From Chromera velia (taxonomy: Eukaryota > Sar > Chromeraceae), in the NCBI GenBank assembly GCA_018398765.1, contig JAHBMJ010003338.1:8485-40242 (forward strand): a stretch of DNA of 31,758 nt. The letters are read 5' to 3'. Within the stretch, counting starts at the first letter, position 1; each line of letters opens with the position of its first letter. A program made the position numbers and the translations under genes. The notes under the pieces are model-generated. The model saw only the letters and a list, made by a program, of their open reading frames with translations. It was not told the DNA's origin and searched no databases. Of this stretch, positions 1 through 21,538 are shown piece after piece.

Positions 1-17
1 CCCCCCCCTCTCTGCAG

Positions 18-1346
18 GCACGTGTACAGCCTCCCCTGCTGCCTACCCCCTCTAGCCGGCCTTCCTCTTCCTCTTTCTCTTCCCTTTCCCAGCACGGCAG
101 GCCTCTCAGTGACCACAGAAACCCTTTTCTCGCCTCGCGCCTGGGTGGTATGCCCCATGACCCCCCCGTCAGGCACTCAGAGGAAGGGGAAGGGGAAGGG
201 CAGCCTGAACATCGAGACGATACAGACAGCAGCAGCAGCAGCAGCAAGACCGCCAGGGTCTCCTCACACAGACACCCATCGGACCCGAGTCTGGAGAGGG
301 AGAGGGGCGGTGAGGTTGAGAAGTTCCCTGAGCCCCCCTTCAGCCCTGGGGAGGAGGTGCAAATTTAAGACCTGAACAGGAGTCCCAGGAGAGTCAACCT
401 CTTCATGAGTGCGTCGCTAGGCAATCCGAGAGGCTTCTTTCCGAGAGAGAGACAGGTGGAGGCATGGACATGATAGGAAAGAGGGAGGAGAGAAACTTAA
501 AGAGAGAAAGGGAGGGAGAGAAGGATTGGAGAGCCCTCAAGGGCTTTGGGCAGGGCTCTGGGGATTCAAGTTCCCTTCCTGCAACTGGCGGCGGTTTTGA
601 CTTACAAGCATGGACATCTTCTGCAGGGGGTCATGGGGAGAATCGTGTCGAAGGGGATGACGAGAGTGTCACCCTAGAGGCCCCCCACATTGATTCCTCG
701 CAACCTGAGGGTGAATCAGGCGAAGACAATGTTCCGGAGACCGATGATGAATATTACAGGGCCTATGGGGATGAGGGGACAGAGAGAGACAGGGACGCAG
801 TCGCCCCCCCGCTGCACAGGGATCGGGAGAGGGAGGGAAAGTGCTTCCGGATGGAAGGGGGGGAGTCAGGAAGGTCACACGCCGGTGGGGGGTATGGGGG
901 ACGCGAGGACCCCGGCAAGGAGGGGGGAGACGGTGAGGAGGACCCTGTTCCTTCCCCTTCGCATCTCTCTGACAGCCTCTACAGGGTCAGGATCAGTGGC
1001 CTTCCGCTGGAAGTGACGAGGGAGGAAGTGACAGAGGCGCTTGCAGAGAACAGTCTTCATCCTCTCAGTGGTAGCGGCTCCTTCTATGTGTATCCGCTGA
1101 GAGATTTGATTGAAAACCCTGAGCTAGACCCTGAGGAGGTAGTCACCTTGGGCTTTGAGGTTGATTTTGGGTCGCTTAAAGAGGCAGAGAGAGCGTTGAG
1201 GGCACCGCTGAGACTGAGGGGGCAGGTGCTGGAAGTGGAATGGAATACATCATCTTTCGAGGAGAGAGACAAGAAGGACAGACGAGGTTAGTTGGTTTGT
1301 CAGCTGGGATTAAGGTGTGACGATTGGCAATGTGCTTCTGCATGTG

Positions 1347-1420
<74 letters not shown>

Positions 1421-4400
1421 TCTGTGTGTGTGTGTAATTAGCTGTGTATGTGTACCTTAATGTGTGTATGTGTCTGTGTGTGTCTGTGAGTGCGAACGCA
1501 CATTTCTCTCCGAGTGAAGGCGTACTCGTATGCAAGTGAGTCAGCGAATCTTAGGCCTGCCCGTCAGTCAGTGACAACGTCGGTGCATTTAGACAAGACC
1601 AGCGAGTCGGGATGTGCATGGTGGCTCGATCGATCTGTGGCAGCTAGGGAAGCCCCACTGCCTGCCCCCTTTGATGATTCTGCAGAATCCCCGACTCAAG
1701 ACCGGGCTTGGGGGCCAGATGGGGATGCAGGTTGGGGGCCAGATGGGGATGCGGGTTGGGGGCCAGATGGGGATGCGGGTTGGGGGCCAGATGGGGATGC
1801 GGGTTGGGGGTCACATGGGGATGCGGGTTGGGGGATGAGTCCAGGTTGGTTGGGGGAAAGGGACTCCCAGGACGAAGCGAGTTCTTCCCGAGGTTCCTCC
1901 TCGTCTTTTTCTGAAACCTGCCAACAGTTAGAGTCGAGCACGCAACAGGCGGGGGGAAGTGCGAGCAACGAGAGAACTGCAGGTGGATGGGGGGCCGAGA
2001 GAACTGCAGGTGGATGGGGGGCCCCTCAGTCCAAAAAGTCACTACAGTCCCTGGAGTTCCAGCAGGAGAAGGAGCAGCAGAGGAAGAAAGACGAAGGACG
2101 ATGGGATCAATGGGAGGTGCATCGTGAACAGCTGCGTTTGCGGAAACGTTTTATCCGGAAACAGCAGCAGCAGAAGTTTGAAGAGCTTCAACAGCTCCAG
2201 CAGGACTTCCAATTCAAATGTCTGGAGTTGCAGCGACTCTCCGCGCAGCTGCTCGAGATGGAGCAGGTGCCCTCCCTTCACCCAGCAGTCGAAGAAGGGA
2301 ACCTGGAGGAAGTCAAGCGTCTGGTCTACTTAGGGGCGGACGTGGAGGCATGCGAGACTTCGGTGAGCGTTTCCATGAAGTGTGCATTCTGTCTGATCGA
2401 TCGATATGTCTTTTCGTATGCGCACTGCATCAAAAGTAAGGCCGGAGAGTGTCACTATGTGAGGGAGGGGGGCTCGGACAGGTCTTCACAATTGGGGGCG
2501 AAGAAGCTACGGGAGATGCTCCGAGAGGGTGCATGCGCTGGAACTGTTCTTTATTTTTACGTGATCTACAACGTGATCCAGTGCTGTCAAGTAAATTCGT
2601 AATTTGGGTGCTCATGCAGTCGGCTGAACATTTGGAATGAGAAAGTACTACCAGCCCTGTGCTGGTGCACCTGCCCAGGTCTTCAGTGAGGAAGACAGCT
2701 AGGCCTTCATGAATCCTCGCGCACATACTCGCTCACTCTTCTTGTTTGCAGAATGGCTGGACTCCCCTTTGGATTGCGGCAGCGAAGGGCTACCTTGATA
2801 TCGTCAAATTTCTTTACGAGACGGGAGCGCACCTTGACACGCCTGACAAGGAAATTGAGTGCATGAGCTTCCCCTGCAGGGGTTTCTCTTTCTTCTCCAT
2901 GCATCTCTAGTCCTGAAAGAGAGAGTTGCATGGGACCAGGATGAAGGGCCTAGCTCGATCATTGCGAACGAAGCTAAGGGGGATCCCGGCACAGACAGAC
3001 AGAGACGTACGGTGGGACAGCTAGAGGACCGACGTGCGGAGGAACCTGGCTAGCTCAGAAATGTCACATATATGCAGAAGACGTGCATGCAGTTCTTTGT
3101 TCTTGATGGATCCTTTGCATGCATGCACGTGCAGAAAGAAGCTTTCGTGTTGTCGCGTGCATGCATGCGAGTTCCAAATTGTTGCCGACTGTTGTTGACT
3201 GCATGCATGGAATTTCTTTCGTGTTAATTTGCCTGCAGGATGGAGAGACCCCCCTCTTCGCAGCCGCCTGGAACGGCCACCTGCAGACAGTACAGTTTCT
3301 GCACGACAAGGGGGCAAGAGTCGAAGTCCTGAATACGGTCAGCAAGCAGCGGTCCACGCAGCCCTCTCAAGCGCATGCAGTCAACTCGGCACACCCATCC
3401 ATGCATGCATGTCTCCTCTTACTCTTCGGTCCTTGGTCGAAAGATTACATGCACAATCCTTTCTCCTTCAGAGTGCACGTCTTGATTTTCTAAACGCCGG
3501 CAGTGACTTGCACGTCTGAACATCTGAAAATGCGAGTACGTTCGAATGAAATTATAATTTCAGGTGTCCAGCTGTTGGTGTGTTTGGAGTGCATCGCAGT
3601 GTGGAGTTTTACGATGGAACGCGCTTTCTTCTGATGTGTTCATGCAGAGAGGTGAGAACGTCCTGTTCTGGGCTGCCCGCAATGGGTTTCCGGAGACAGT
3701 CAAGTTTCTTCTCGATAAGGGGGCGAGCGTGGACGTCCGGACAGAGGTCAGGCAGGCAGGAGAATTCAATTAATTTCTTTTCTTTCGTGATTGAGGGAGG
3801 GAGCATGCATGCAGCCGCTTTTGATTCTTCTTTGTTGGTGTCATTTTCTGCATGCTGCTTCGATTTCTTCTCGGTCTCTGATGAGTGTCCTAGTGAGTGT
3901 CCTTCTGTGTCGCCCCTTTCTGTGGATGTGCCTGCATGCAGAGGGGTCTGAGTCCTCTCTACGCAGCTGCCTTGAGTGGCCACAAGGAAACAGTCAACCT
4001 TCTTGTACAGAAGGGGGCGAAGGTAGAGTCGCAGCTTTTTGACCAGGTAAGCGGGCTGTGTGAAAAGAAAGATCAAATGTCTGCTTGTCGATTCTCATGC
4101 ACGCCTCGTTGTGAGTGCATACGCTTCCTAGCTTGTCTTTCCTAGCTGTTCCCTCTGTATGTGCACTTCTGGGGGATGGCTATGAAGTGAATGAGGAGAT
4201 CGTCTGGATGGATGTCCAATGGCCGAACACAGATCTTCTCTCCCTGCTTCTTTTCCTTTCTTTGCGTCTGTCTGATATATCTGCTGCCTGTCTGCCTGTC
4301 TGTGATGAAGAGGTTCACATGAAGATGTCAGTGCCAGAGGACCCGATCTAGCTTCGGGGGTGAGAGAGAAATTGTGATTTAACGGGTCGCAGTGCATGCA

Positions 4401-7240
4401 GATCGTATTTTACGGGTCGCAATGTGTATCTGACAGCATGTCTTTTCTGGTTATCCTGGCTCGCTGGCCTCTGTCTGTCTGCATGCAGAGAGGCAAGTTC
4501 AGACCGAATCCCCTTCTGGCAGCTGCGTGGAAGCAAAACGTGGAGATCGTGAGATTCCTTCTGCAGTCACTCTCTGAGATGACGGATGCGAGGCTACTGA
4601 GCGCACTCTTGAAGGCTGTTGAGTCTCCAGAGGTCCGTCCGTCAGTCTGTTGCATGTCTTTTCTTCTGTGAGGTTTCTGCTCTTTGCTGTTGACGGTACC
4701 GCTGTAAGGCATGTCTTGTCCAGAGCATCAGGGAGGAAACCTTCCGCCTCTCTCACCTCACTCGGATGTCTTTCGATATACGCACAGCTACTATAATCCT
4801 GAAATCTCTACTTGCCTGTTTAACTTACCACTGCTTTGTAAGAGAACCGACTTAAATTACTTGGAAGCAAACTGATCGATGCTCATCATCAATGAAACCA
4901 TCTCTGCATGCGTGCAGGAAAAAGGCAGGTCTCTCTACGAAGCTGTGGTCAACGAATGGATAGACGGAATCAAACTGCTCGTCCTTCTGGGCACAAAGGA
5001 GGCCACTTGCCCTTCGCTTCGTGCATTCGTTCTGGGAAGACACTGCCTTCTCAGAAGGGCCGTACTCAACGGCGACGTAGAGACAATTGAGTTGCTGGAG
5101 GTCCTGCGAGGGCGGACAGAGACAGGCGCGCAGGCGAAGAGCATTGTGAGTGATTTTTGTTCTGTGTTTCTTTTTGTTGTTGAGAGCGCATGCCTCCTTT
5201 TTTCTTGTCGTCCTTTCGTAAGATTGTCTCTCCATCCATCTTGTGTGGGACGGCAGTACGTCCATGTTTTGTTTTTAAATTTCTTTCTTCAGCATGCATT
5301 CTTTACTTGACTGACTGACTGACTGACTTTCCTGAAGCACGCGGTCTTTTGAAAGAGAAGAACATTAATTGGCAGGGGAGACGGGGAATGAGTGTCTCGT
5401 GAGAGGGTCACAGAGTCTGTGCATGGAAGCCTTTCTCCAATTGCTGCAGTGGGCAGACTGTCGCGCCTTCGGTCTCACTGACAGCGGTCTAAGCGGAATC
5501 TTGCAATTTGCGATCGAAAGCGGTTGCTTGAAGATCGCCAAGTATCTGCTTGAGAGGGGGGCTTGTGATGAGGTGAGCGCAGCTGTATTTCTTTGATGTT
5601 TTGCGTGTCAGAGTGTTAGACAGTAATGTTGAATGGAAGCGTTCTTGTGTAACACGGACAGGGGCTGGCCTAGGTGAAAAAATGGAGTGTACGGCTGCCG
5701 GCGAACTTCCTGTGAGATTGTACGAATACGCCTTTTGAGGTGATGGGTTGGAGTGTTTTCCTTCTTGTTGCACTTTATTTTCCCGCTGCCGTTCACTTCG
5801 GACTTTCAATTCTCTTTCCGCTCTTCTGGCCCCCTGTCTCCTTCACGCACGTCCATCGTTTGCCTGCAATCAACTTGTTTTACAGTCTCCGCACAAGGCT
5901 CTTCTGGCGGCTGCCTGTTCCGGTCGCCTGGAGGCGGTCAAGCTCCTCGTCGATTGGGGGGCCAAGCTGGAGCCAGTCAACCGTGTCAGCTAGTGCATGG
6001 ATAGCTGGGTCTCTTGTTTGTCGACTCATGCGGACTCGTGGAGGGTTTTGATTCTCGAGTTTGTTAGTCCTTTTTTTCTTTCTGCGTTCAAGAGACAACC
6101 TCCAGCCATGTAGCTTGATGGATTGTGATTTCCCACGTGCGCCCGGACTTTTCCAATCCGATGCTGCAGCCTTCCGACCTTGCTGTGCCTTCATTGAGCT
6201 AGAGGTGCAGAATATCAGAGCTGCCGCTTATTTCTTTTGGAGGTCACAGCGTTGCGCTTGATGGCTGGTCTGTTTCTTTTTTGCGGTGCATGTCATGAGA
6301 TTTTGCAGAAGGAACTCAGTGCCCCCTTCCTCGCTGCATCGTTTGGGCATCTGGAGACGGTCAGATTTCTCATCGAGAAAGGAGCGAACGTGAACGCCGT
6401 TACAAAGGTGAGTGAATGCAGTGAATACGAGCTGGTGAAATCAGTTAATTTTGTTTTGACCTTCCAGCTGACAGTTGGTGGCTTGATAGTCTCGAGCATG
6501 CATGCAGCCCTGCATGTGGGTTTGATGCCCTCTGAACTGTTTTGTTGCCCTGAATTGATAAGGGCATTCAATTTGTTGCTGTGCGCGCAGAATGGAGAGA
6601 GCGCCCTTTGCTCGGCTGCCCGTAAGGGATTCCTCGAGATAGTGAAGCTCCTCTGCGAGAAGGGGGCGAGGACGGACGTTCGTAACAAGGTGAGCTGCAG
6701 TCCTCCCGCCCCCCTCTCCGTGATGTGTGATTGAGTGAGTGTTTCAGTCAGTGTGCATGGGGTGCGAATCCCGTGTAGGCTTTGTTTGTCAATGGATGGC
6801 ATGAATTCAATGCGCTGTTTTCTTGATTAGTCGCTTGCTCGTTGGAGACGCAATTAAAGCGCTCAGCTCACGGATTGCTGCTTTGAGGCGCCCACAGGCC
6901 CACAATGAACAGTGAAAATTGGTCGAAGTCAGTTTTTGTGCGGAACCTGGTGCTTGCTTTGGGGTAATCGGGGATTCGTGAAAAAGTGCATGGGCCCATG
7001 CATGCGTGTAATGGGCGGACGCAGGGGGCCGTCTGTCTTGTGTAGCTAGGGGGGTACTGTAAGATGGTCTGGAAACTGTGACTACCGCTGCATGGTGTGG
7101 ACCCGGATTTGAGTGATGTCTGCATGGCCCGTTTGCATGCAATGCTATGCATTCAGGACGGGTTGATTCCTCTGACGGTGGCGGATCGTGAGGGGCACTT
7201 GGAGGTTGTGGACTATCTCTTTGATCGCTATGTGGGGTGA
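18..7240 (+). CDS. Gene A: RRM / WG-repeat / coiled-coil / ankyrin-repeat protein, 5' end outside the window
   Basis: Exons as I read them: 18 to 1286 (with a small unresolved interruption between about 310 and 455), 1686-2362, 2752-2850, 3239-3337, 3648-3746, 3942-4046, 4489-4632, 4918-5145, 5414-5572, 5886-5984, 6309-6407, 6591-6689 and 7157-7240 (TGA). All phases agree: phase 1 after 1286, phase 0 afterwards. Domain order is a Ser/Glu-rich acidic region; an RRM (about 985-1240, starting LYRVRISGLP); WG/GW repeats (1700-2030); a Q-rich coiled coil (about 2100-2260, RKQQQQKFEELQQLQQ); then ankyrin repeats to the stop. RRM and ankyrin families bind RNA and protein respectively; a scaffold role is inference. 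The acceptor at 18, preceded by a C-run, matches gene B's exon 2 acceptor at 11816, so a catalytic exon may lie just left of the window. A strong donor at 7282, after the stop, may start a 3' UTR intron. The exon at 5414 is the least certain acceptor. Confidence 0.82.
231..248 (+). repeat. AGC trinucleotide run coding poly-serine
   Basis: Six AGC codons in gene A give a short serine run inside an acidic Ser/Glu-rich region. This is a typical low-complexity linker. Confidence 0.8.
310..455 (+). other. Unresolved small intron or frame change in gene A
   Basis: The exon opened at 18 reads in one frame (homologous to gene B's exon 2 start: both give PLLP followed by Ser-rich sequence) and hits TAA at 366-368. 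The RRM frame is open from 380 onward. Two splicing solutions restore phase. One uses a donor at 357 with an acceptor ending at 379 or 388, giving a 23- or 32-nt intron. The other uses a strong GTGAGG donor at 310 with an acceptor ending at 455, giving a 146-nt intron. Gene B has no intron at the corresponding place. A frameshift in gene A cannot be excluded. Confidence 0.5.
1343..1435 (+). repeat. (TG)n microsatellite in gene A intron
   Basis: Nearly pure TG dinucleotides lie in the intron between the RRM exon (ends 1286) and the WG-repeat exon (starts 1686). A few TGCG and TTTG interruptions are present. Confidence 0.95.
1708..1827 (+). repeat. 24-bp coding minisatellite giving WGPDGDAG repeats
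   Basis: Five tandem 24-bp units, the last slightly diverged, encode an eight-residue repeat W-G-P-D-G-D-A-G in gene A (the last unit reads W-G-S-H-G-D-A-G). The unit length is a multiple of three, so copy-number change keeps the frame. A second short repeat, two 27-bp units coding ERTAGGWGA, follows at about 1971-2024. Gene B has no equivalent array. Confidence 0.95.
2752..7240 (+). other. Ankyrin-repeat exon array of gene A
   Basis: Eleven phase-0 exons continue the ankyrin domain begun at about 2275 (HPAVEEGNLEEVKRLVYLGA). Six are exactly 99 nt, one 33-residue repeat each: 2752, 3239, 3648, 5886, 6309 and 6591. The exon at 3942 is 105 nt. Those at 4489 (48 codons), 4918 (76) and 5414 (53) carry diverged or fused repeats, and the last (27 codons plus stop) is a capping repeat. 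Each exon starts at the loop (NG/DG/RG-x-x-P/L), keeps the AA-x-x-G-H/F/Y helix and ends after the G-A-x-V/L-D/E turn. Donors are GTGAGN, GTAAGC or GTCNGN, except at 2851. Confidence 0.85.
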
Positions 7241-9296
7241 CGTCTTGGAGGATCAAGAGTTCGGATTCAATTTAAGTGAAGGTAAGTTCCTTTGTTGGGT
7301 GAACTGAGAAGGGGGGCTGGCTGGTTTTTGTCTCATGCATCATGTGGGAGAATTGGAGTGTGGCAGCTGGCACGCACTGGTCGGTCACGGCAGCGTAATA
7401 CTGCGGGGTGACACACAGAAAATCGAGAGAGGAGTCGGCAGACGTATGTGAGGGTAGTGAAAGGGGAATAGACAGCTAGCTTGTCGAGACGTACAGAGAG
7501 ACGAGGAAAGAGGGGCATGAGTGGTGATTGGAAGGATGGGCTGGCCTTTTTTGATCACGCAGAATTAATTCGCATGGGAACAGTTGGTGTGCTTTGTCAT
7601 TTGGGGATCTACAGCAAGGCGGTTTGATGATGTCTTCGTCTCTGTGTGTTCGTCGGTCTAGCTTCCTCTTTCGCCCAAAATCTTCAAGTAAGTCTACCGC
7701 TTCCACAATTAAGCACGTGCATGTCTGCATGGACGACCGACCAAAATGAGACTGCAAGGTCGCGCTGTTCACCTCTGTGTGAATGAATGGGTTGCATGTG
7801 CAGTGCTCATGATCACTCGCTTGCTTGCATGCCTTTACGTGCAGATGCCTGATCGATGCCAAACTTGCAGCACAAATCCGACTGCATGTCCTCGTCTTCG
7901 CGTTTGGCTGCATGTCTGGTTGCTTCTAGCTAGTCGTTGTGTGTGAAGAGACTTTGAAATAAGAGTGAGAGTGGGTAGAGGGGGAGGGAGGGTTCGAGCA
8001 ATGTCTATGATAGAAAAAGTATTTTGATCTGGTAGAAAACAGAAGAGCTGGCCTGGGTGATTGATCTGGGGATGTGCTTTGAGATCATGTGATTGTGGAA
8101 CTGCCACCAAATTTGACTTCTTTCACTCCCTTTAAAAAAACTGCCATTCGCTCGTCTGCTTCCACTTTTTCCTCGTAGCTGGGGAGCTTCTCATGCGTAG
8201 GTGAAAACGATCCCTCTTTCCTTCCTGTTTTTTGTGAATTAAAGGGGTCAGCTAAAAGGAAGAGAGGGGAAGCGGCCGGACACGCTAGCTCGATCGTTTT
8301 GGGAAGGAACCGTGACCCTACATGATCGATGGTTTGACGTTTCTTTTTGGGTTTCTCTCAATCGTTTTCTATATGTCGCCCCACGAGACTGCATGTACAT
8401 CAAAGAAATGATAAATTATTTTTAGATCGTATGCTAGACCGTATGATAGAATGAATACTACATTAAGTAGTGGAAAGATGGTTGGGGGAAACATTTGTTT
8501 ATATCTCTGACAAATCCGTATGTCTGTGACTGTTAGAGTGAAACACAATAAAAACTACCCTAAAGAATGTTTGCTGGAATGTCCGGTGAAAAAGTCTGGT
8601 TACTGGATGTTTTGACTTACCTTTTTGAAAAGTCACCTTACCATTTTGAAAAAGTCTGGTTGGTGCATCTCGAAAAATATATAGAGTATGAAGCTATATA
8701 AAGCTAAAAATTTGTGTACAAAGCGGGCTTAAAGCAGGTAAAAGCTACTCGTAGCGAACACTAACTTCTACTAACTTCAAAGGCCTTTGCTAATTTTTTT
8801 TTCATAACTAGAAGAAATGTCCGGTTATCAAAAATGGTAAGTCATAGTATGTTAAAAAGGCAACTTACCAAAAAAAAGTCCGGTCGACCGGGAGACAGAC
8901 TTCCTTCGTGGGGTGACTGTGATATTGTGCCGGTGCCAGTGCGATGATTGATCGCGTCGCCTGCGGATCTTAAGTTACCCCAATAGGGTCCGCGGGCCCC
9001 CCCTGCAGACTGAGAACGATTTTCTTGTCAGAGACTGACATGAGACTGACAATTGAATCACTGCGTTGCCTGTATCAGGGGTTGCATGTGGAGTAGGAAA
9101 AATACATGTAAAGCAAAGAGACGGTCTGAAGCCCTTTCGAACTTTTTCCCACGACCACTTTTGCGTATTTCCCCCTTTTTTCCTACCGGGAGACTTGCCG
9201 TCTCCTCTCACCAGCAAGAGTCTCGTGATGGACTCGAGATTTTATTGGATTGGTTTCTCCTGTCTGTCTCGCGACTTACAATAATTGAAGTGCTTC
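7241..9296. other. Spacer between gene A and gene B, with 3' flank homologous to gene B's
   Basis: No convincing gene. A segment at 8143-8540 resembles 17451-17755 downstream of gene B, including a perfect 25-nt match (8143-8167 with 17451-17475), so it belongs to the duplicated unit. At 8581-8890 there is an AT-rich block in which GTCCGGT/GTCTGGT and ACTTACC/GGTAAGT motifs recur in both orientations. The stretch just before 9297 should hold the promoter and 5' UTR of gene B, but I recognise no specific element. Confidence 0.6.
8581..8890. repeat. AT-rich block with recurring, partly inverted short motifs
   Basis: GTCCGGT or GTCTGGT occurs at 8581, 8594, 8654, about 8819 and 8878. ACTTACC or its reverse complement occurs at about 8615, 8836 and 8863, and CACCTTACC at about 8634. 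The right half read in reverse partly mirrors the left half, which suggests a small inverted-repeat element. No coding potential and no clear target-site duplication are visible. Confidence 0.35.
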
Positions 9297-11603
9297 ATGG
9301 ACGTAACCTTTGACCAGCTGGTTTCTGCCAGCCCGGAGGTGCGTGCAAAGCTCCTGGCTCAGCTGAGGGCCAATGCTGATCGACAGAAGTTCATTGTCAA
9401 GAAAGCAAAGAGCTCTTTCGCTTCCCTTCTGTCTCCTTTTGGCGTCAAACCACTCGTCCACGGAAGCTGGACGCAGGGAATCCCTTTGCCCGACAGCGAC
9501 TGCGATATCTCATGCCCTGAGGATGTGAACCTCTCTGAGACAAGGAGAGCCCTGCGGAGTTTGCAGAACACCCGCTTCTCCGTCAGAGAAGTAGTCTCCG
9601 ACTGGCGTCTGTTGGTGAGACACACCGACTCCCGAGTGCTGCTGGATGTGACGCAGAAGACCGCATACAAAGATGAACCTTACTGGAAGTCCAACCACAT
9701 CTCCAAGTCCCTCGACTGGGCCAAGGACGAGAACGTGAAGAGTGCCACCCTCATTCTGAAGCTGTGGGTGCGCAAGCATGCTGACCTCTTCCAGCCGAAG
9801 GACGGTTACCCCAATTCCTACACCTTCCTGCTTATTTTCCTTTTTCTCTGTACTCACAGGCAGAATCCTGTTGTCCCTCTGATCACCTGCGCAGTTGAAG
9901 GAACAGGAAGAGATGCCCGTCTCCGCAGCCTTCCCGTCTCCCGTCCTTCCACCGCCGTCTCCTCTGAGGACCCCCTCGTCCTCTTCCATCACTTCCTCGG
10001 CTTTTTGGCTGCGGATTTGAAGGGAATGCACATCGCATTTCATTACACAGAGAGACAGAGCATCCCGCAAAGCCTGAGCGAAGAAGATCAGGTGGCTGCG
10101 CGTGCGTGGTCGGTGACGGAGCCCTTCACAAGAGCCGTCAAGTGCAAGCCGACTGTGAAGTGGTTTGAGCAGATTCGGCCGAATATTATCCGCCGAGCAC
10201 AGGCAGATTCTGTGACTGTTGCTGAATCTCTGAGAAAGTATTCCCCCAATGCACAGACATCCATGCTGAGTGCCAACGCAGTCCCTTTTTCCATTAACCC
10301 GTCTCCGTCTCCCCAGCATCTGAGCCTGTCACAACAGCAGCAGCAGCCATGTGAAGGTTTGGGTGCCTCACTGCAAAACGAGGACTGTATGCCCAGCAAC
10401 AGCGCGAGCAGCGGACTGAGCAGGGGTGGGGAGCAGCAAGGGTTGCAAGGACAGACGGACGCATCTGCATCCTCTTCGTCTTCGTCGTCTCTTCCTGTGT
10501 CGGGACAGAAGCTGTCTCAGCGGAAGGCCATCTCTCCAGAGGAGAGAGCCCCCGTCTCTCTGCTCCAGGGGGAGATGGAGACGGCTGATCGAACAATGGG
10601 GTTGTCTGTAGCACAATTTGAGATGTTTCACCAGAATACGTCGGCCATCGCGCATACGCAAGAGGCTCAGCAGCAGTCAACAGAGGGTTTGCGCACATTC
10701 CCTCAGGCCGAGAAGTCCCATTGGCACCGCCATGAAAGAGACTCGGCCAGCAGTGAGAAGGGGGCGCAACAGAGGCAGCAGTTGCATGCGGGCAGAGAAG
10801 AAGAAATCGACGTTAGAGCTGAAAAATTCGAAGAGAATGGGGAGGGTATTCCTCTGGAAGGGAGGGAGGGGAAGAGGGAAGGACTGTCAGCAGCAGGCAC
10901 AGGGGAAGAAGTGAAAGAAGATGCAGACAAGCAGCTCCTTCCAGAGCGTCTCCTTCCGAAAGTCATTCCGGTATCGTCGTTCTGTATTGGCCCGGGGGAG
11001 GGGAAGAAAAGCCGCACGATCGATAAGACCATGTCGAAAGAGAATCACCCTCCCGTCTCTCTACCCCAGCAAGAAACGGAGACGGCTGATTGGAGAATGA
11101 TTTTAAGTGCTGTGGTAGAAACGGAGGGGACTGAAGGAAAGGACGCAGTAACAGGTCCCCCCCGAATGCCGTGGGTGGATCTTCTTCTGTCCGATGAGGA
11201 AGAGGAACAGAAGGAAAAGGAAGAGGAAAAAGTGCGAGGGGGTCGGAAGGACAGTCATGAGGAGTCAGCGGACGTCACCAAGGAAAACGAAATTCTTTCA
11301 TCGAATGTAGAAGGGGAGGTACGCGAGTGTGACCACTGCCGCTGTCGCCTTTCTTTGCTCTCCGCCTCTTTTCCCTCTTGTCTCTATCCGATTGCTCTTT
11401 CCTCGAGTCTTTAATCCTCCACCCGCTTCTCTCTCTCTTTCCGCATTTCTTCTTTCTTTCTTTCTTTCTTTCCTTCCTTCATTCATTCCTTCTTTCTTTC
11501 TTCCGTTCTTTCTTCCGTTCTTTCTTTCTTTCTTTCTTTCTTTCCTTCCTTCCTTCCTTCCTTCCTTCTTCCGTTCTTTCTTTCTTTCTTCCTTCCTTCC
11601 TTC

Positions 11604-11634
<31 letters not shown>

Positions 11635-14600
11635 TCCTTTCTTTCTTCCTTTCTTCCTTCCTTTCTTTCTTCCTTCCTTCCTTCCTTCCGCCACGCGTCC
11701 ACGATTCCTTCCGTCTCCCCTGCCCTGCCCCTTTCAATCGATTCTTCGCCGTAGTCCTTTCTACAAGCAAACCACCATTCCCTCCCCCCCCCCCCCNCCC
11801 CCCCCTATTCTGCAGGCGCAGGAGGGCCCTCTCCTGCCGATCCCCTCGGCCCCGCCTTCCTCTTCCTCTTCAACGCAGAGCAGCCACAGCGACACTGCCT
11901 CTGCTGGGGCCTCACACAGGCAGGAGAACCCAGGCAAGCCTGAGGAGGTCTGGGAGAGGATTTGGGAGGGGATCTGGAACAGGGCGTGGGGGGGGAATGT
12001 CTCTCCCTCTCCCCCCACACAAACGACCACATCTAAAGGCCAGACTGCAGGGGCCATGCGCAGAGCTCCGTCTCCCATCTCTCAGCAGCCATCTGAGACA
12101 GCCACCCAGCCGGACACCGGAGAGTCGGAGAGAAATGAGGAGAGAGACCGGGGGGGTGTTGCAGCAAAGTCCCCCCAACCAACTTCCTCTCCCGACTGTC
12201 CAGAGGAAGAGGGGGTCAGAGGTCCTCAGCACGAGTGCCCTGGAGGGAGTCCGAGTTGGACGGTTTCTCTTCGGAGTTCAGAGTCCGTCGCTGTGAGTTC
12301 AGAGAAGGGAGAGGAAGAGGGAAAGGCAAAGAGGAAGGTTGGAGGAGGCGCGGCAGGGGTCCAGGAGGGTCTGCATAGTGGGTTGAGAAGACTGGGCTTA
12401 GAGAAAGGGTTCAGTCGAGGTTTGGAGAAGGGGATTGGGCAGGGGACTGTAGACCCTATTCTTCAAGACCTGTTTGACAAAAACGTACAGATATCTTCTG
12501 ACAATCAAGATGAGAATGAACACGAAGGAGGTGTTGAACTTTCGCAGTCTTCCCCCTCTGTTTCCAGTCCTTCGTCGTCTGTTTTGTCCCTCCGATCTTC
12601 CGATGATGCCCCTCTGGTTGAAAGGGGAGGGGGAACAGAGGGAGGAGACGTGGGCACGGCTCTGAGTGTAACGCTGTCGGAAGCAGAGGAACACTCCCAA
12701 AGTAGGGAAGAGATTGAGGGGGGAGAATCGGGAAGATCTGCTGGGGGTGGGCGGGGGTATGGGGGACCACAGGACCCCGGCAAGGGGGCGGGAGACAGTG
12801 AAGAGGATCCTGTTGCTTCCCCTTCGCGTCTCTCTGAAAGCCTCTACAGGGTCAGGATCAGTGGCATTCCGCTGGAAGTGACGAGGGAGGAAGTGGCAGA
12901 GGCGCTTGCAGGGAACATTCTTCATCCTCTCAGTGTTAGCCGTCTCTTCTTCGGTTCTGTGCGTTTCGGTGCAACCAATCGGGGTTCGTGTGTGGTTGAT
13001 TTTGGGACACGAGAAGAGGCAGAGTGGGCGTTGAAGGTGTCGGTCAGACTGAAGGGAAAGATCGTGAGAGTCCGGTGGGAAGCAGGAGGAGGGAAGGAGG
13101 AAGAGAAAGAGAGACGTCCCGCGGCCAGACGAGGTCGGTCGGTCGGGGGGTGGGATGCGAGGAGGATCAGGGCTGTGTGTTTCATTGTCTCTTTCACACA
13201 CACACAAATACATACACGTAAACGCTCTTACTCTTTCTGCCTATGTCTGCTCTGTTCCATTGGCTATTATGGGTCACAAGAAGGAGAAGCAGAGAAAGAG
13301 CACACAGTCTGTCTTTCTGTCCGTCCGTCTGTCTGTCTGAGGAGGGAAAGAAACCATATAGTCTGTCTGTCCGTCTGTGTATGTGAGTGCATTGCATCTG
13401 TCTGCGTTTGTGTCCGTCCTTGATCAATTTCTCTTCAAGTAAGCGTTGTGTGTGGTATGATGCCACAAAAAATCCCCCTGTTGAATCTTATGCGTGTGGC
13501 ATGCAGTCCGCTCTTCTTCTGCGGGGTTCCGATTCTCCACGTGAATGAGTGAGGAGAGGGATCCCTCCCCATCCCATCCCTCTGTCCCCTAGCTATCTGT
13601 TTGTGCAGAGTCCCCAACCGGATCCCTCCCTCGGACAGCCCCAGCGCATCTGTTTGGAGGCTCTCACGTCAACATCATCATCGAGCAGTATCGTGTGCGT
13701 GTGTTGCATTTGCCCCCTGTGTGGCGTAGCGAGGATTTGCGAGGGTTTCTTGAGGAAAAGGGTTTTTGCCAGATTGAAGATACTTTTGTTCTCTTTGAGG
13801 GGGGCGAGAAGGAGAAGAACAGGGGTGTCGGGTTTGTCGTCTTCAGAAAGGCAGACGATGCAAAGAGACTGATGGAAATGACTGCCAATGGAGAGCTGGT
13901 GGCAGAAGGGAACTGTCTGGTGGTTGATTCAGCCTACGTAGATCGTGTGCCCTTGTCCTGTACTCCAAGGGAGGGGAGTCCTCCTAAAGAGGGGGGGAAA
14001 GAGAGACCGAAACAGAACGAACGAAGGGAGGTTCCGATAAATGAGCAGAAAGGAGGTGGTGGGGAGGGAGTGGAAGCAGAAAAAGAAGAAGATAGCAGCG
14101 GATCGGGTGGGAATGCGAAGAAGGCAGCAGCTGAAAATGAAGAGCGTGGGGCGGTGGAGGGAAGTGACTCGGAAAAGAACAGATGCAGCATTAGAGGAAA
14201 TTCAGGGGAAGGATGGTTGGGGGGGCATGATGAGGGCAAGGAACCTTCTAGCACCAGCATCAACGCAATGCCCCCCGCTCCAGCAGCTTCAGTTCCTTCT
14301 TCAGGGTCTTGCGAAATTGGTGAGTGCCTTGATCTTTCCCCTTTTCGCTCTCCTTTTGCCTTTCGTCTTCCTTCCTCTCTCTGGCCCTTTCTCTAGCGGT
14401 CCCTGGGGCCGGGGGAGGGTGGGTGCCCTGAAACTGCTTTCTGTGTGCATTTTTCAGTACGACAAAAGAATTGAAAACACCAACTTTCTCGTTGGACACA
14501 AATTAAATGAATGTATTGCCAATGAATTCATGTCTGCTTGCAGCCGCTGATCCCTCCAACGACACTACAGAGGCCGTAACGCTGATTCTCTCTCGTTTGA

Positions 14601-15330
14601 GTTACACCACCACTGCAGACGAATTGAGGCAGGAGGTAGAGCAGATGGGTTTCTGTCCTCTCAACGTCTCCCTCCCTCCGAGCAAGGAAAAGGAAGATGA
14701 ATGTCCAGGCTGGCAGAACAGAGGTTATGGGTTTGTGAGCTTCAAAACGAGACAGGAGGCGGAGTCGTTACTTCAGAAGAAGGTCGTGGTGGACGGAAGG
14801 AAGGTGCGGGTCCAGTTAATCAAAGAAGCTGCAGGGAAATTAATTGATGGAAACAAACTGCGGCTCCAGTGGGCTCGAGAGAGAGACAGAGAGACGGACG
14901 GAGCCAGAAGGGAGGAGAAAAAAGACGGTGAGTCGGCAGGTGTTTTCCTGAAGTTTTCGTGCATGCCCTGCTTTTCCTCCATCCTCCTTCAATTGTCCAT
15001 CGTCAATGGGTGTCTGTCAGAATGTAGCGTGTATATATGTGTGGGTGCGGGAGTGTTCCATGCAGACGTTCTTGCCTGCTTGGATGTGACGTAGCATTCG
15101 TACGTTGGCTTCGCGTGTCTTAGCGTCTCGTGATGAACAGGGAGGGGGCTGCACTCTCTTTCGCCCTCCTCCCCGTCTCCTTTCTCACTTTCTTTCTTTC
15201 TCTCTCTCTCTCTCTCTCTCTCTGAGTGCATGTGTGTTTGACGCTGTGTCCCCCTCTGTGTGTCCCCCTGTGCCTGTGTGTGTGCCCGTGTGTGTGCCTG
15301 TGTGTGTGCCTGTGTGTATGTATGTATGTA

Positions 15331-15368
<38 letters not shown>

Positions 15369-16645
15369 TGTGTGTGTGTATGTGGGTGGGTGGGTGTGCT
15401 TGTGCGTCCGTGCATCCACCCCTCTTTTCCTTTTTAGCTTTCTGCCTCCCTCCGCTTTGGGCGCTGAGGCATGAATGAAGCCATTAGTCAATGCTCCTAC
15501 GATCTATTCATTGAGCTCATCGAATGAAGATCGTGAGAACGCCCTCCCCTCTGCCCTTTGTCTGATGATGTGCAGAAACTTCCCCTGCAGGACATGCCAT
15601 TGGTGTCTCCAGCGGCAATGTGCAACAGCCTCTTTCTGAAGATGTTCATGAGGAGCAAGAGGAGGGTCATGGAGGGGGCATTGAGACAAGACGTGTGCTG
15701 GTGGGAAACCTCCCTCGACCTTGGCGTCATGACGACTTTCATTCGTTCATGAACAGATCGGGTTTTCCTCTGATTGATGCTGCTGAGGTTCATTTCAGTC
15801 AGGGGAAGGCGATGGCACTGTTTAACAGCGGGTTTGGTTTTTTGACCTTTCTGAAAAGTGAGGATGTGGGGAGGTTGGTTGGAATGGCAAACAGGGGAGA
15901 GCTCGTTGCAGAGGGGAGGCGTCTGTCTGTCCAACGAAGCTGTGACTCATGGGGAGGGCAGCTTGGTGTTCTAGGCGAGTCTGGGGAAGCAGAAAACGGA
16001 GAATCTGGCTGGGGCGGTGATAGGAAACCAACCTGTTCTTCCCTCTCTGCACCCCCCCAACCGTTAGAGTCCACCCCGCAGCATGCAGGTGAATCTGCAA
16101 AGGTCGAGATCCCTGTGGAATTTGGGGGGGTGGAGAGAGAAACCAAGGGCCTGACTGTTGGTGTCGTCTCTGTCTCCTCCTCTGTCATGGAAGGGAAAGA
16201 GGGGCAGGAGGCTGAGAAAGTGAGGGGGAGGCAGAGTCTCGACATTGCCCCCACGGAAAGAGAGCACGACCGCATGTTGGCGTCTGACAGTCGTCCTCTC
16301 TGTACAAGGAGGGCTGTTCCTCTTCAAGGGGGTTCTTTTGCTATCTCGACACCCAACTTGCCCGCAATGCCGTTGCAGAGGAGGCGTGTGGCTTCACTTC
16401 GCACTGAGGAGAACTCCTCTCTGGCCTTCCTGTGGCGGCAGTGGGAACGACAACGTGGGCAGCTGCTTCGTGATCAAGCCCGAATCCGAAAGCAGCAGCA
16501 ACAGAAGCTGGAAGAGCTCATGCAGCTGCATCGCGAATTCGTGCAGACGGCGCAGGAGCTGCGGCGACTGTCCTGCCTCAAAGCTGCAGCATCCGTTCGT
16601 CCCACCAGCAGTGGAAACAAAAAAGAGGGAGTCGGATCTAACTAA
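9297..16645 (+). CDS. Gene B: nucleotidyltransferase (TUTase/non-canonical poly(A) polymerase-like) with four RRMs
   Basis: Exons 9297-11318, 11816-13133, 13609-14319, 14544-14927 and 15576-16645 (TAA) splice in phases 0,1,1,1 to 1834 residues. The start is the first ATG after an in-frame TAA at 9282. Residues 1 to about 310 are a Pol-beta-like nucleotidyltransferase: GS at 56-57, D-S-D-C-D at 66-70 (catalytic D68 and D70), a third Asp at 117 (RVLLDVT), then the PAP-associated part (SATLILKLWVRKH; NSYTFLLIFLFL; about 285 WSVTEPFTRAV). Enzymes of this family add U or A to RNA 3' ends; which nucleotide cannot be read here. A Q/S/E-rich linker follows to about 1015. RRMs are at about 1018-1100, 1142-1225 (RNP1 NRGVGFVVF), 1362-1448 (NRGYGFVSF) and 1519-1600 (SGFGFLTF). 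A coiled coil at about 1765-1812 closes the protein. All three catalytic Asp are kept, so activity is plausible. Confidence 0.88.
11319..11815 (+). other. Gene B intron 1 with a (CTTT/CCTT)n tract
   Basis: The donor is GTACGC after ...GEGE and the acceptor is TTCTGCAG, phase 0 on both sides. It contains about 240 bases of TTTC/TTCC tetranucleotides (11449-11689) and a C-run with an undetermined base at 11797. The reading frame happens to stay open through the tract, giving Ser/Phe/Leu/Pro-rich nonsense. I take it as intron because the gene A acceptor at 18 has the same C-run/TCTGCAG context and homologous coding sequence starts directly after it. Confidence 0.85.
11449..11689. repeat. (TTTC)n/(TTCC)n pyrimidine microsatellite
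   Basis: Almost pure pyrimidine tetranucleotide repeat, interrupted by TTCCG triplets, inside gene B's first intron. The pyrimidine strand is the sense strand. Confidence 0.95.
15199..15402. repeat. (CT)n, (TGTGCC)n, (TATG)n and (TG)n compound microsatellite in gene B intron 4
   Basis: A CT run (15199-15224) is followed by TGTGTGCC-type repeats (about 15260-15315), TATG repeats (about 15317-15336) and a TG run to about 15380. All lie between the RRM3 exon (ends 14927) and the RRM4 exon (starts 15576). Confidence 0.95.
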
Positions 16646-19079
16646 GGGAGGTCAAGGAACATGATACTTGTCGATCATGCGGTAGAGAGTGGAGATTGTA
16701 GCCGTCAAATGGATGCATGAGGGGATCGTGGAAGGCCGGGGGAAAGGAAAGGAAAGAAAACGGAGTGCCAAGAGAAGACAGACAGAGAGAGGNGGGGGGG
16801 GGGGCATCAGTGGTGGAAGGCAGCATGGGTCATTTTGCTTTTTGATCCGATTGTTTGATTTTGCGTGTGATCAACAAACGAGTCGGATGGATCAATTTGA
16901 TGTGTCGATCTGCCGCTCATGGAGCGGTCAAGTGGACTCTTTCGCCTGGAGTGGAGCTGGATGCATGCATGCCGGGTGTTTGTTCGTCTTGCTCTCTCTC
17001 TGGTAAATAAATAATTTAAGCTTCTTCGATCGACGCGGGGAGTGAGGGAACCGGAGTTCTTTCTTGTGGACTGTTGAAAGAATTAAGTGACGGTGTGCAT
17101 TGCGTGGGAAGTCTGTGCAGCTTTCCTCTTATTTATGGACGTGTGGAGTGTGTGTGTAATGGTAACGCCGTCTTGTTGGTAGGATGCATTTATGCGCAGA
17201 TGGCTGAAGCCCCAAAACAAGTGGCTGCCATCTGCTTTGCGTTCGACTGTCTGGCTTCTTACGGTCGTTTTGCTTCGCTAGTGTGCGAATTAAGGGAGGG
17301 GCTCTAGGGAGAGGAGAAGAGTGGCGAAAAGCGTCGGAAAGATTTCTTTAAAGAAAGTCGATGGTCTATCGATGCATGGTAGAGTGCGATGAGATGGAAC
17401 TTTGAAACTGGTCTCCGAGTTTTATCGAGGTACTTCATTGACTCTCTTTTGCCATTCGCTCGTCTGCTTCCACTTCTCGTGTGCGTCTCTCTTTCATGCT
17501 TTTTGTGAATGGAGCGAGGTGGGGTTGGAAAGTGTCGTTCTACTTTTGAGAACTGCATGTGATTCTTTACATGATGCGTTGATGCTGTGGGGTTCTTCTT
17601 GATTGTTTTCCACACGTCGCCTCACAAGGCTGGACGCCAACACAATGATCAATTTATTTTTCGACCGTATGAGAGGAGGATTACTGGACTGCATCCATGG
17701 TGGGAGTGGGTCTCGCATATGCCGCTGACAAGCCCGTCTGTATTTGGTATAGAGAAGAAGTTTTTTTACCATACATATGCTGCCAGATATGCTGCTGGTA
17801 GTGCATGACAGAAAGTTGTCAATCTGTATGTAAGTGTAATTTTAACTGAAAGCGCCGACCAAAGTGGAAAGCATTCAACTAGAGCCTACAGCACACTGCC
17901 TGGGGTGACTGCTATGCTGTAAAAAGTATATAAAAAATGAAATGCAAATCAATCCTGCGCATAATAAAACTAAATAAAATTTAATAAGTGACTGATGTTA
18001 CTATTACGTTAGGACTGATGGTAACTAGGATTAGGATAGTGATGATTAGGATAAGGACTAGGATTAGGGTATATGTCCGGAGTAATAATATAATAATATT
18101 CAATGTTAAGTTAATTTAAATATATATATTAAATCGCCTTGAAGTTGTTTAACAGTAAACTTTCAGTTGGACGATACTAGTTATAGTGCCAGTGATAGTT
18201 TCATCATAGTGATAGTAGTGCTTTAGGGTAGTGATATAATTAAACTACAGTAACACTTTTGTAGCCTAGTGGTAACACTTTTTGATCTCACTCTTTGCGC
18301 TACTTTACATTAATTTTGCATGTATTAATATATATTAATATGTAAAATCTCTGCATTATTAGACTGCATGCACAGCTAGCATATTTTTAAATTGTAGTTT
18401 TATCGTTTATGGTTTATGGTTAATTGGGGTGCGCCTTGTACATATATATAGTTCATAAAAATGCGGTAAAATGCGGGGCGCGGGTGTACATGCAAAACTT
18501 GATTGGGGATCGAACTAAATTGACGAATTGATTGAAGCTTCATACAATGCAAATAATAATGCTAAATATAGAATATTTCAGTATTTTATTTTAGAAGTAT
18601 ATAGTCCAGCTTTCTCCGGACCGCGTTGTCCCCACTTTTGTAAAAACCTGGCATCCGCGGGACAAAGTTTTCTCTGCAGCTCCGTATGAGAATTAATTAT
18701 ACTTGCCGAATCGCCAGAATTGATAAAACACAAAGTTTGTGTACGCTCCTATACTCGGTTCGTCCGCGTACTACGTTGTCCGAAATTCTTCGGCGCGCGA
18801 TGCGCGCCCACTCTCGTGTATTATATAATATATTAATACAAAAAAAACAAAGATCAATTCGGTTCCATACATGCGCATCGCTACATGCAGCTCCAGATTT
18901 AGTGGCACAGAGGACTGGCGCAGAGAAGGAGCTCACGGCGCATTCATGGGAATACCCTGCATGGTGTGCTTACAGCACTTCCCCGTGGAAAGGCCTCCAG
19001 TGGGTTCAACTGTGACAACTCATCAAGAGACGGAGTCTACTTGTGGCGCTTAATTCATCCGTCTCCTCAAGATCTGTCA
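16646..19079. other. Gene B 3' flank and AT-rich spacer
   Basis: The G-run at 16793-16803 holds an undetermined base. The segment 17451-17755 is the counterpart of gene A's 3' flank (8143-8540). A stretch at 17202-17307 follows an acceptor-like GCGCAG and reads MAEAPKQVAAICFAFDCLAS..., loosely like the start of an ankyrin exon; it may be a relic. From about 17900 to 18650 the DNA is AT-rich, with imperfect GATTAGGAT repeats at about 18020-18070. No gene is supported. Confidence 0.55.
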
Positions 19080-19901
19080 ATGAACTTGAAGGTATTCCTT
19101 CCTCTCTTCTGCATCCTTCTGGGTGGGACAGTGCAGGGGCGTCTTCTGCCTTCATTTGAAGCTCCTCTTGCTCTCTCAAGCCCGCAGCCATCTCCGATGT
19201 CGTTGCAGCAAGTTTCGGAGAAAAACGGAACGTCGGAGTCTGGTGGGACGTCAAACGGCGACACGACATTCCCGATCAGATACCGAAAATACGTTCCCCG
19301 AAGACAATCGAACAAAGATGCAGACTCAGGAACTCTTACTCACACAGTTCCTGTGCCCATGAGAAATGCACGAAATGCAAATCCAAAGCTGACCCTAGAA
19401 GGCAGCGGATTCGAACTGGTTCCTTTTCGAGATGGCATGGCGGAGGGGGACTTCTGGAACGACCAATTGATCAAAGACAGCTACTACCCGGCTGTGTCTG
19501 AAATGATCAAAAAGCTCACAGGAGCAGCGGAGGTAAAACCTTTTCATCACCTGGTAAGGGCTAAGGGTGTGGAGGTCTACGCGGGAATTGCGCACTCTGA
19601 CTACGCACCCAAAGCTGCTGAGGACCTCGCAAAGCTCAGCTCCATGCGTCCTTTTCGAGGCCGAATGAAGGTGCGTATTTCCGTTTTTCTTTGCATGTTG
19701 TTGAATTTGTGAACTGATGACAGCAGACAAGAGGAAAACATCCATGCATGCCCCCCTTTGGTCTCCTTCCTCGATCGTCAAAGAAAAAAACTATCAACTA
19801 TCCAGTCATGCAGTTTTAGATTTACGGAAGTCACCTACGGGGGACCAACCATTGTCCTTAGAACATTCACAGACACCCTCTCTCTCTCTCTCAGACACAC
19901 A

Positions 19902-19960
<59 letters not shown>

Positions 19961-21538
19961 ACGGCGTAGAACTCCATGGGCACATGTTGTCTTCTTCCTG
20001 CATACATTCGTCTTTAAGAAATGCATCTCTGCATGATAGCGACTGAACAGACTCTCTCTCAGTCTTCCTGAATTACTCCCTTCGATCATACATTCTTCCA
20101 CCCCCCTTTCGTTCCATCTCAACATGCCCTTCTTTCTTCCTTCCTTCCTTGTCGTGTCAATTCCTTTTCGTATCGTTCTCACCTTCTTTTTGCCGATCTC
20201 TGTCTGTGTCGCACTAGACGTTTTGGCTTTGAGTGCGTGCAGCCCCATATGCACTCAAGGACTCTGTGGATGTGCTGTATCACCTGTCCATCCATCACTC
20301 ATCCGTTCGTCCATCATTAATCGATTTCGTCGTCCATTATCCACCCACCCGTGCTTCCATGAATTTATGGATTCATATGCGTGATCGCACAGACAGATCG
20401 ACGTCCTTTCTTTTGCCCATGCTTCTGTCTGTCTGTCCGTCTGCCTGTCTGCCTGTCTCTCTATCTGTCTATCCGTCTCTCTGAGTTTCTTTTTTTCTTC
20501 CTTCCTTCCACCATTCCTTCCATTCCTTCTTCCTTCCTTCCTTCCTTCCTTGCTTCCTTCCTTCCTTCCTTCCTTCCTTCTTTCCTTCTTTCCTTCTTCC
20601 TTCTTCCTTCCTCCTTCCTTCTTCCTTCCTTCCTTCCTTCCTTTCTTTTTTTCTTTCTTTCTTTCTTTCCTTCCTTCCTTCCTTCCTTCCTTCCTCCATT
20701 CTTCTGTTCTTTCTCTGTTGCTTTCTCCATGTCTTTGAAAGTCACGCTCATACGGACTCCTTGAAGTGCCCAGCAACTTCGTCAGTGAGAACATATTTTT
20801 CCGGCGCAGCCATGTCCTTTGTGACTTTCTGTCTGCTCTTAATATCTTAATCATTCGATCGATCGATCGCAGGTGATCAACGTATGGAAGAGCATCGACG
20901 ACTCGGGCTCGATCAAGAACCACCACCTGGCGATGTGCGACGCCACCACCTCAGTGGCGCCTGACGACTTTATCCCCTTCAGCAACTTCGAGCCAGGCAA
21001 GGCGACTGTGGACACTTTCCACATGAACGGGAACTATCACAGCTTTCATAAATGGTTCTACTACCCCGAAATGACCCGATCTGAAGCCCTCGTGTTCAAA
21101 CAGTGGGACAGTGATCCTAGGTCCCCTACACGCTTCACCTTCCACTCAGCAATCAGCTTTCCCGGTGTTGAGGAGTATAACCGGAAGAGTATCGAGACGC
21201 GTCTGGTTGCATTTTTTCCTGATGAGCCGAATTCAATGCCGGACTTTTCTGTGCCCCCCAAGATGAGAGTTGACACCGCAAAGGCGAAGGTGAAAGAGGC
21301 ACTCGGATACCTGAAACACTGGGACGGCAAGGGACAGGAGTGGGCCCTTGGGTTGGTTGCACGCAAAAAGTTTGCAGACCTTTGCCGGGGGTATATTCAT
21401 CATGCGGGAAAGGTTGAGAAGCAGCCAGAGTTTACAGACCTGTCACCTGCACAAACAGAAGAGGTCATCAAGTGTGTCTGTGGAGATAAGACCTTTCAGG
21501 GTTTTTTGAAGAAACTGGCAGACGAAATTGAGGATTAA
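19080..21538 (+). CDS. Gene C: CmcJ/AsaB-like non-heme iron oxygenase with signal peptide
   Basis: Two exons, 19080-19670 and 20873-21538 (TAA), joined in phase 0 (donor GTGCGT, acceptor ATCGCAG), give 418 residues. Residues 1-20 (MNLKVFLPLFCILLGGTVQG) look like a signal peptide, which supports this first ATG. The core from about 105 to 318 matches the pattern I recall for the CmcJ/NvfI/AsaB family, proposed Fe(II)/2-oxoglutarate-type hydroxylases or desaturases of fungi and bacteria: H172-x-D174 in IAHSDYAP, VINVWKSI at the exon join, LAMCDATT, HKWFYYPEMTRSEALVFKQWDS, then RFTFH288 and KSIETR307. These give a plausible 2-His/1-carboxylate set plus an Arg for the co-substrate. The substrate is unknown. 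The last 100 residues form an extra, probably helical tail that I do not recognise. The signal peptide suggests secretion or entry to the endomembrane system. Confidence 0.8.
19877..19957. repeat. (CT)n(CA)n(GA)n compound microsatellite
   Basis: CT to 19892, CA to 19919 and GA to 19957, within the gene C intron. Confidence 0.95.
20497..20697. repeat. (CCTT)n pyrimidine microsatellite
   Basis: About 200 bases of CCTT/TTTC repeats in the gene C intron, sense strand pyrimidine, like the tract in gene B intron 1. Confidence 0.95.

Follow-up and report, generated by a model that had tools for sequence, protein, structure and literature searches.

Tandem paralogs with different domain architectures at a Chromera velia locus encoding a putative Cid1/CutA-type nucleotidyltransferase

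The locus described here raises the question of how two neighbouring genes of Chromera velia can be alike at both readable ends and in a coiled coil, and carry different domains in between. The window, that is the whole stretch of DNA analysed (31,758 nt; C3230:8485-40242 in an assembly of 177.8 Mb and 4,040 contigs), contains gene A (1-8540) and gene B (9297-17760), the exons of which were predicted from sequence, with all splices inferred, including that joining B exon 1 to exon 2. Gene A encodes, in order, one RRM, WG repeats, a coil and 11 ankyrin exons, and gene B a nucleotidyltransferase (NTase) exon, a degenerate PAM2-like motif, RRM1-RRM4 and a coil. Sequence comparison confirmed the two as diverged, collinear tandem paralogs that differ in two blocks, RRM2-RRM4 in B and the ankyrins in A. 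Ordinary gene duplication accounts for the pair; what is unusual is the combination of domains, a new architecture made from known parts. Taken as a whole, we consider it probable that A and B are duplicates from a small RRM family, with later loss, a difference in ankyrins and gene conversion.

Collinearity of genes A and B

The window was compared with itself using blastn and local alignment, the latter scored against 200 dinucleotide shuffles. The acceptor context proposed as shared in an initial annotation (positions 18 and 11816) was recovered as a 75% match of A 1-75 to B 11798-11870 (E 1e-5), and 0/200 shuffles reached the score of A 1-372 against B 11790-12700. The RRM1 exon is likewise common to both genes (A 850-1075 versus B 12712-12940, 86% over 229 bp, E 1.5e-73) and ends at the same donor in the same phase (GACGAG/GT at 1286 and 13133, phase 1 in both). 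The residues ESPT do open A exon 2 and B exon 3, as had been noted, and are too short to carry weight. Derivation of A exon 2 from B exon 3 or 4 was rejected, with 145/200 and 104/200 shuffles reaching the score; the WG linker of A (1686-2040) matched B exon 5 (0/200). The Q-rich coil held as a shared anchor (A 2102-2371 versus B 16433-16683, 0/200; 0/200 also for the region A 2030-2400), its protein sequences being 55% identical over 47 aa at E 5e-8 without low-complexity masking, and giving no match with masking.

The 3′ flanks, first placed at 8143-8540 and 17451-17755, were also shared (A 8130-8900 versus B 17440-18300, 0/200, with a 26-bp exact match by blastn), and the collinear sequence reached beyond that extent, to about 1.1 kb (A 7200-8141 versus B 16560-17449, 0/200). 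By eye the similarity ends near 8540/17760; 17/200 shuffles reached the score of 8500-9300 against 17700-18600. The introns after RRM1 (3/200, driven by TG repeats) were left out of the evidence. Collinearity is thus present beyond the RRM and coil, contrary to the refuting outcome named in the initial annotation. Each of the five comparisons outside RRM1 (A 1-372, 1686-2040, 2030-2400, 7200-8141 and 8130-8900) stood at 0/200 shuffles, and the duplication is real.

The two differing blocks were found as first described: B RRM2, RRM3, RRM4 and NTase had no match in 1-8600, and the ankyrins of A had none in 8601-18500 (tblastn, E up to 0.01). Of the idea that one TUTase-like (terminal uridylyltransferase-like) ancestor produced two architectures side by side, the single ancestral locus stood, and the TUTase-like label applies, through profile matches, to B only. 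For A the reading is limited by the contig, which has 8,484 Ns before window position 1 (and Ns again after the window end), leaving the sequence upstream of A, and any fusion of A to an NTase, unreadable; in addition, the A frame corresponding to B exon 2 stops at 366. The features are listed in Table 1.

Table 1. Predicted features of genes A and B in the window, and of the unlinked paralog C
Feature	Position	Strand	Remarks
Intron end with acceptor (CAG)	1-17	+	like B 11798-11815; upstream reads N
A, RRM1 exon start, frame 2	18-368	+	like B exon 2 start; TAA at 366-368
A, open frame 1 with RRM1	332-1286	+	donor after 1286, phase 1
A side of gene-conversion-like tract	888-1085	+	
A exon 2: WG repeats (~1700-1858), B-exon-5-like linker, Q-rich coil (~2100-2260), ankyrin region start	1686-2362	+	phase 0 out
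A, 11 ankyrin exons	2752-7237	+	all phase 0-0, 425 aa without stop; TGA at 7238-7240
A 3′ region, collinear with B ~16690-17760	7400-8540	+	ends by eye
B exon 1, putative Cid1/CutA-type nucleotidyltransferase	9297-11318	+	phase-0 donor
B degenerate PAM2-like motif LSANAVPFSI	10266-10295	+	four paralogs: MNANAPEF(R/K)P
B exon 2, linker and RRM1	11816-13133	+	phase 0 in, phase 1 out
B side of gene-conversion-like tract	12753-12950	+	
B exon 3, RRM2	13609-14319	+	phase 1-1
B exon 4, RRM3	14544-14927	+	phase 1-1
B exon 5: RRM4 (probable RRM2 copy), linker, Q-rich coil, stop	15576-16645	+	
B 3′ region, collinear with A ~7400-8540	16690-17760	+	ends by eye
Gene C: GW-rich, PAM2-like, RRM1-RRM2-RRM3, long acidic tail	C3903, locus positions ~818-5928	-	

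A third paralog and the two blocks that differ

Homology to known RRMs was found for each repeat by sequence. RRM3 exceeded the Pfam cut-off, and RRM2 did so as a domain (22.8) while falling just under it as a whole exon (20.4 versus 20.7); RRM4 and B RRM1 scored below it, and A RRM1 had no Pfam match. RRM1 was assigned by a three-sequence profile matching solved RRMs (nucleolin at E 7e-6, with no single stretch passing, and the next at 1.9e-3), and RRM4 by 42% identity to RRM2.

Searches with B exon 5, RRM1 and RRM3 each led to contig C3903, which carries the unlinked gene C. When the genome was searched with B RRM1, the strong rows were B itself, A (9e-34) and C (1.5e-26), followed by weak rows at 8.5e-4 and 0.007; weaker relatives of RRM3 lay on C1295, C3476, C59, C627 and C4036. 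Gene C has RRM1, RRM2 and RRM3 in this order, and its exon ends resemble those of B on the 3′ side of RRM1, on both sides of RRM2 and ahead of RRM3; at the end after RRM2 the B/C comparison reads TTG/GTGAGTGCCTTGAT versus ATG/GTGAGTGCCTTTGAT. It also carries the PAM2-like SQLNASAPPYEH, a pattern with one further match beyond the gene, and, following RRM2 in the RRM2 exon, GW/WG repeats (9 versus 2.1 expected, 0/2000 shuffles). The 30 kb of C3903 examined gave no match to NTase, coil or ankyrin at E up to 0.01, nor to NTase even at E up to 0.1.

Since C has RRM1-RRM2-RRM3 with the exon ends of B, the simplest reading of these sequences is that this set is ancestral and that A most likely lost two of the three, RRM2 and RRM3; their exons are both phase 1-1 in B and could therefore be dropped without a break in frame. 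RRM4 is, judged from alignment and tree, a copy of RRM2: pairwise identities were 53% (B2-C2), 54% (B3-C3), 41% (B4-C2) and 42% (B2-B4), and B2, C2 and B4 formed one clade with support of 100/99. Three observations fit this history less well: C lacks an intron after RRM3 resembling that of B, the joining of A with B in the tree had support below the mark (91/94), and RRM4, on a long branch, joined C RRM2 and not B RRM2, also below the mark (87/80). The last grouping implies that the copying of RRM4 may predate the B-C split.

The ankyrin block could reflect gain in A or loss in B. That the ancestor of A and B had extra RRMs as well as ankyrins, and that B lost the latter, is a tenable possibility towards which we do not lean. 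Just past its coil, B (16560-16750) weakly resembles the start of the ankyrin region of A (2260-2400; 2/200 shuffles, and 0/100 in a similar, laxer comparison), and this tells against gain by A; on the other side, the ankyrin block of A left no significant trace in the 3′ region of B (8/200 shuffles, no tblastn match), and neither coil nor ankyrin was matched in the 30 kb around C. Ankyrin repeats abound in the genome: at least 145 rows matched the array (E up to 1e-6; the best 99 of 704 candidates were scored), three of them A itself, so that naming a donor locus for the ankyrins was not possible.

Gene A, with its tandem Ank repeats (Pfam, exon array), is an ankyrin-repeat protein. The 4.5-kb array claimed at the outset was upheld as 11 phase 0-0 exons with 425 aa, subject to one correction: exon 2752-2850 is followed by GA, the other nine ankyrin donors being GT. 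Pfam matches were clear on several of these exons; exon 4918-5145 by itself had none. The GA at 2851-2852, after an otherwise regular exon, is either a non-canonical intron or a damaged site. The WG repeats, also claimed initially, are present as 16 GW/WG pairs versus 4.2 expected. This count is inflated, arising mostly from a 24-nt tandem repeat at ~1700-1858 that encodes GWGPDGDA and, its copies being nearly identical, has recently expanded. B exons 2, 3 and 5 showed no GW/WG enrichment. In other proteins, WG repeats bind Argonaute.

The first exon of A was borne out in its RRM1 and donor; its single frame was not, with frame 2 running from 18 to the TAA and RRM1 lying in frame 1. This change near 356-390 may be an intron (197 GT-AG pairs could reconcile the frames), a pseudogene mutation or an assembly error, and together with the GA donor it speaks against A as an intact gene. 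A might accordingly be a decaying RRM-family pseudogene, or an RRM remnant beside a separate ankyrin gene, to which the stop at 366 in the frame of B, the GA donor at 2851 and A-B Ka/Ks ratios of ~0.7 and 1.1 for two segments of RRM1 would all conform. We consider this unlikely in view of the eleven phase-0 ankyrin exons (425 aa stop-free), a coil exon in phase on both sides, and the retained acceptor and RRM1 donor.

The nucleotidyltransferase of gene B and its genome family

A search of the assembly with the B NTase found 12 further loci (39-55% identity, best row each). An eight-sequence profile (B and seven paralogs; 8 of 13) matched CutA (6.5e-8, over positions 15-279 of 309), Cid1 (7e-5), GLD2 (4.5e-4) and TUT4 (1.8e-3). 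Cid1-like NTases have the catalytic motif GS...SDxD followed by a third Asp; B keeps GS...DSDCD and LLDV, with the triad D67, D69 and D116 (counted from the residue after Met). Profile and motif support B as a Cid1/CutA-type NTase at the level of superfamily homology. The PAP_assoc domain is present in many, not all, Cid1-like NTases; PF03828 had no match in B exon 1 and five in the genome, all on other contigs. A diverged PAP_assoc may escape the model, and the claim is therefore limited to the superfamily, with no named subfamily. On its own, the B sequence was less telling, which tempers the assignment: it matched no Pfam family, its best match among Protein Data Bank (PDB) entries was TUT4/TUT7 at E 0.13-0.32, and a single-sequence structure prediction (predicted local distance difference test, pLDDT, 35) was not used. 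A Pfam match to CBP4 (E 0.02 and 0.004, below cut-off) was judged to be chance.

Four of the 12 paralogs (C955, C1835, C3476 and C1433) carry after the NTase a near-ideal PAM2 motif, (R/T)(S/T)MNANAPEF(R/K)P, which we take to fit the pattern L-N-x-x-A-x-x-F-x-P; against this pattern the motif of B keeps L, A and F, its N and P positions being occupied by S and I. Motifs were sought up to 1.5 kb beyond each NTase match, and at C2281 and C3458, where Ns begin just past it, absence is uninformative. Two paralogs, C1238 and C1835, have an internal stop, and two others, C3476 and C323, lack the first catalytic Asp (DSRLD, DSLVD), which suggests that the latter two are probably inactive.

Downstream sequence was taken for 4 of the 12 loci. 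At C3476, an NTase frame with PAM2 is predicted to be joinable through phase-0 GT-AG ends to an RRM exon (RRM_1, 35.7 bits for the whole, with no stretch passing alone), in which three repeats were seen by eye, the last 34% identical to B RRM3. Leucine-rich-repeat frames of 639-711 aa lie ~1.5-4.4 kb downstream of the NTase at C955, C1436 and C2246 (below, at and over the Pfam cut-off, respectively). These may be separate genes from the NTases, the NTase frame at C2246 closing with a stop. By eye, the NTase and leucine-rich-repeat frames at C2246 share a C-terminal motif. The NTase tail at C1238 gave a sub-threshold CUE match (E 0.011). Stretches rich in WG/GW were also seen by eye at C2274, an NTase paralog, and at C3064 in a gene with PAP_assoc.

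It could be asked whether B is two genes, a stand-alone NTase whose frame ends at 11411 and a separate RRM1-RRM4 gene. The exon 1 donor at 11319 (GGGGAG/GTACGC) is not a strong consensus and thus detracts from B as one gene, and C has RRMs with no NTase match within 30 kb. We nevertheless doubt the division: A has the counterpart of the acceptor at 11815, the phases fit, joining the five exons yields a single 1,834-aa frame in which the final stop is the only one, and at C3476 too an NTase frame precedes an RRM exon, the ends being phase 0.

Like TUTases of the Cid1/CutA/GLD2 type, B combines profile homology with GS...SDxD and the third Asp; unlike them, as compared by sequence, it has no PAP_assoc match and is linked to RRMs and a coil. 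Arabidopsis URT1, which to our knowledge lacks RRMs, was matched very weakly by the NTase profile of B (E 0.45). URT1 is described as an mRNA-tailing NTase with a disordered region in the main text of PMC7910438, where PAM2, which might have been expected for this protein, has 0 occurrences. Of proteins with PAM2, the present family offers a fitting motif in the four paralogs named and a degenerate version in B. PAM2 binds the MLLE domain of poly(A)-binding protein, and GW182 has both PAM2 and an RRM. Gene C resembles GW182/TNRC6 in combining GW/WG repeats, a PAM2-like motif and RRMs; it has three of the latter, and the resemblance is one of parts only. PMC7917804 describes GW182 with an Argonaute-binding region and a link to poly(A)-binding protein. 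Among the papers listed by literature searches, none dealt with this locus or with a protein combining NTase, PAM2 and RRM.

Gene conversion, history and possible function

Identity between A and B in RRM1 was uneven. The proportion of synonymous differences (pS) between them was 0.10 in A 888-1085, 0.77 in the 13 codons of 851-887 and 0.49 in 1086-1286. Within the tract, pS was 0.61 for A-C and 0.59 for B-C (0.50 and 0.42 in 1086-1286), indicating that its codons are free to change; purifying selection behind the RRM1 identity was rejected, as synonymous sites are alike in A-B only and not with C. None of 5000 codon-column shuffles attained the run score of the tract, where Ka reaches the level of Ks (0.12 versus 0.11). 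Over the remainder of RRM1, the A-B distance equals that to C. The RRM1 identity of 86-90% is best read, from these substitution patterns, as a gene-conversion tract, a recent patch on an old duplication; a point on the other side is that the tract limits and run-score rates were chosen after data inspection. With the strongest A-B identity limited to ~230 bp and the rest of A RRM1 as far from B as from C, one might suppose that copying between two unrelated neighbours transferred a short cassette with RRM1 along with the 3′ regions, A and B not being full duplicates. The shared order of the acceptor, the RRM1 exon with its donor phase, the linker, the coil and the 3′ region, together with five further comparisons at 0/200, makes this very improbable. 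The initial annotation mentioned neither the tract nor gene C, nor the derivation of RRM4 from RRM2, nor the family of NTases.

Elsewhere in the window, positions 19080-21538 hold a candidate two-exon gene on the plus strand, with one sub-threshold Pfam match to DUF4074. Overlapping plus-strand open reading frames at 25747-26759 matched no Pfam family at E up to 0.1; they are reminiscent of NYN/PIN nucleases.

In the history we propose, three exons of the ancestor would have encoded RRM1-RRM2-RRM3, an arrangement that persists in C and B, and RRM4 would have arisen as a copy of RRM2, either in the B line or before it. In A, a deletion would have taken out the exons of RRM2 and RRM3, with RRM4 if it was present, and left the RRM1 exon fused to the linker-plus-coil exon. 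Eleven ankyrin exons between coil and 3′ region would have been gained by A or lost by B, and later conversion between the neighbours would have made ~200 bp of RRM1 alike again.

With its Asp triad intact, B would be an RNA 3′-end nucleotidyltransferase, and most likely, by its predicted domains, an mRNA 3′-tailing enzyme aimed by its RRMs. These would bring it to mRNAs, the PAM2-like motif perhaps acting weakly as a hook for poly(A)-binding protein, and its coil would serve self-association. A, as far as it is readable, would be a non-catalytic partner with one RRM and an ankyrin docking array. As a docking partner, suggested by its WG repeats and ankyrins, it may act through the related coil, which might pair with that of B; the WG repeats could dock Argonaute. 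The genome has 20 Piwi-domain matches on 14 contigs (18 over cut-off), meaning that possible Argonaute-type partners exist.

More speculatively, and with considerable reservation, A and B may be a live example of how an expanded Cid1-like tailing family evolves. In each member a single catalytic exon, in many cases accompanied by a hook for poly(A)-binding protein, would be linked through phase-0 introns to interchangeable modules: sets of RRMs, leucine-rich repeats or a CUE-like tail, and perhaps also ankyrins and WG repeats that dock Argonaute. Exon shuffling would aim the tailing, and conversion would keep the neighbours partly alike.

The locus offers a readable case of turnover in the targeting parts of genes associated with a tailing enzyme: the neighbours and ends are the same, the middles differ, and an unlinked third gene, C, separates loss from gain. 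Were the PAM2 and WG readings true, tailing, poly(A)-binding protein and small-RNA silencing would meet in one family. The larger modular NTase family is the more interesting lead.

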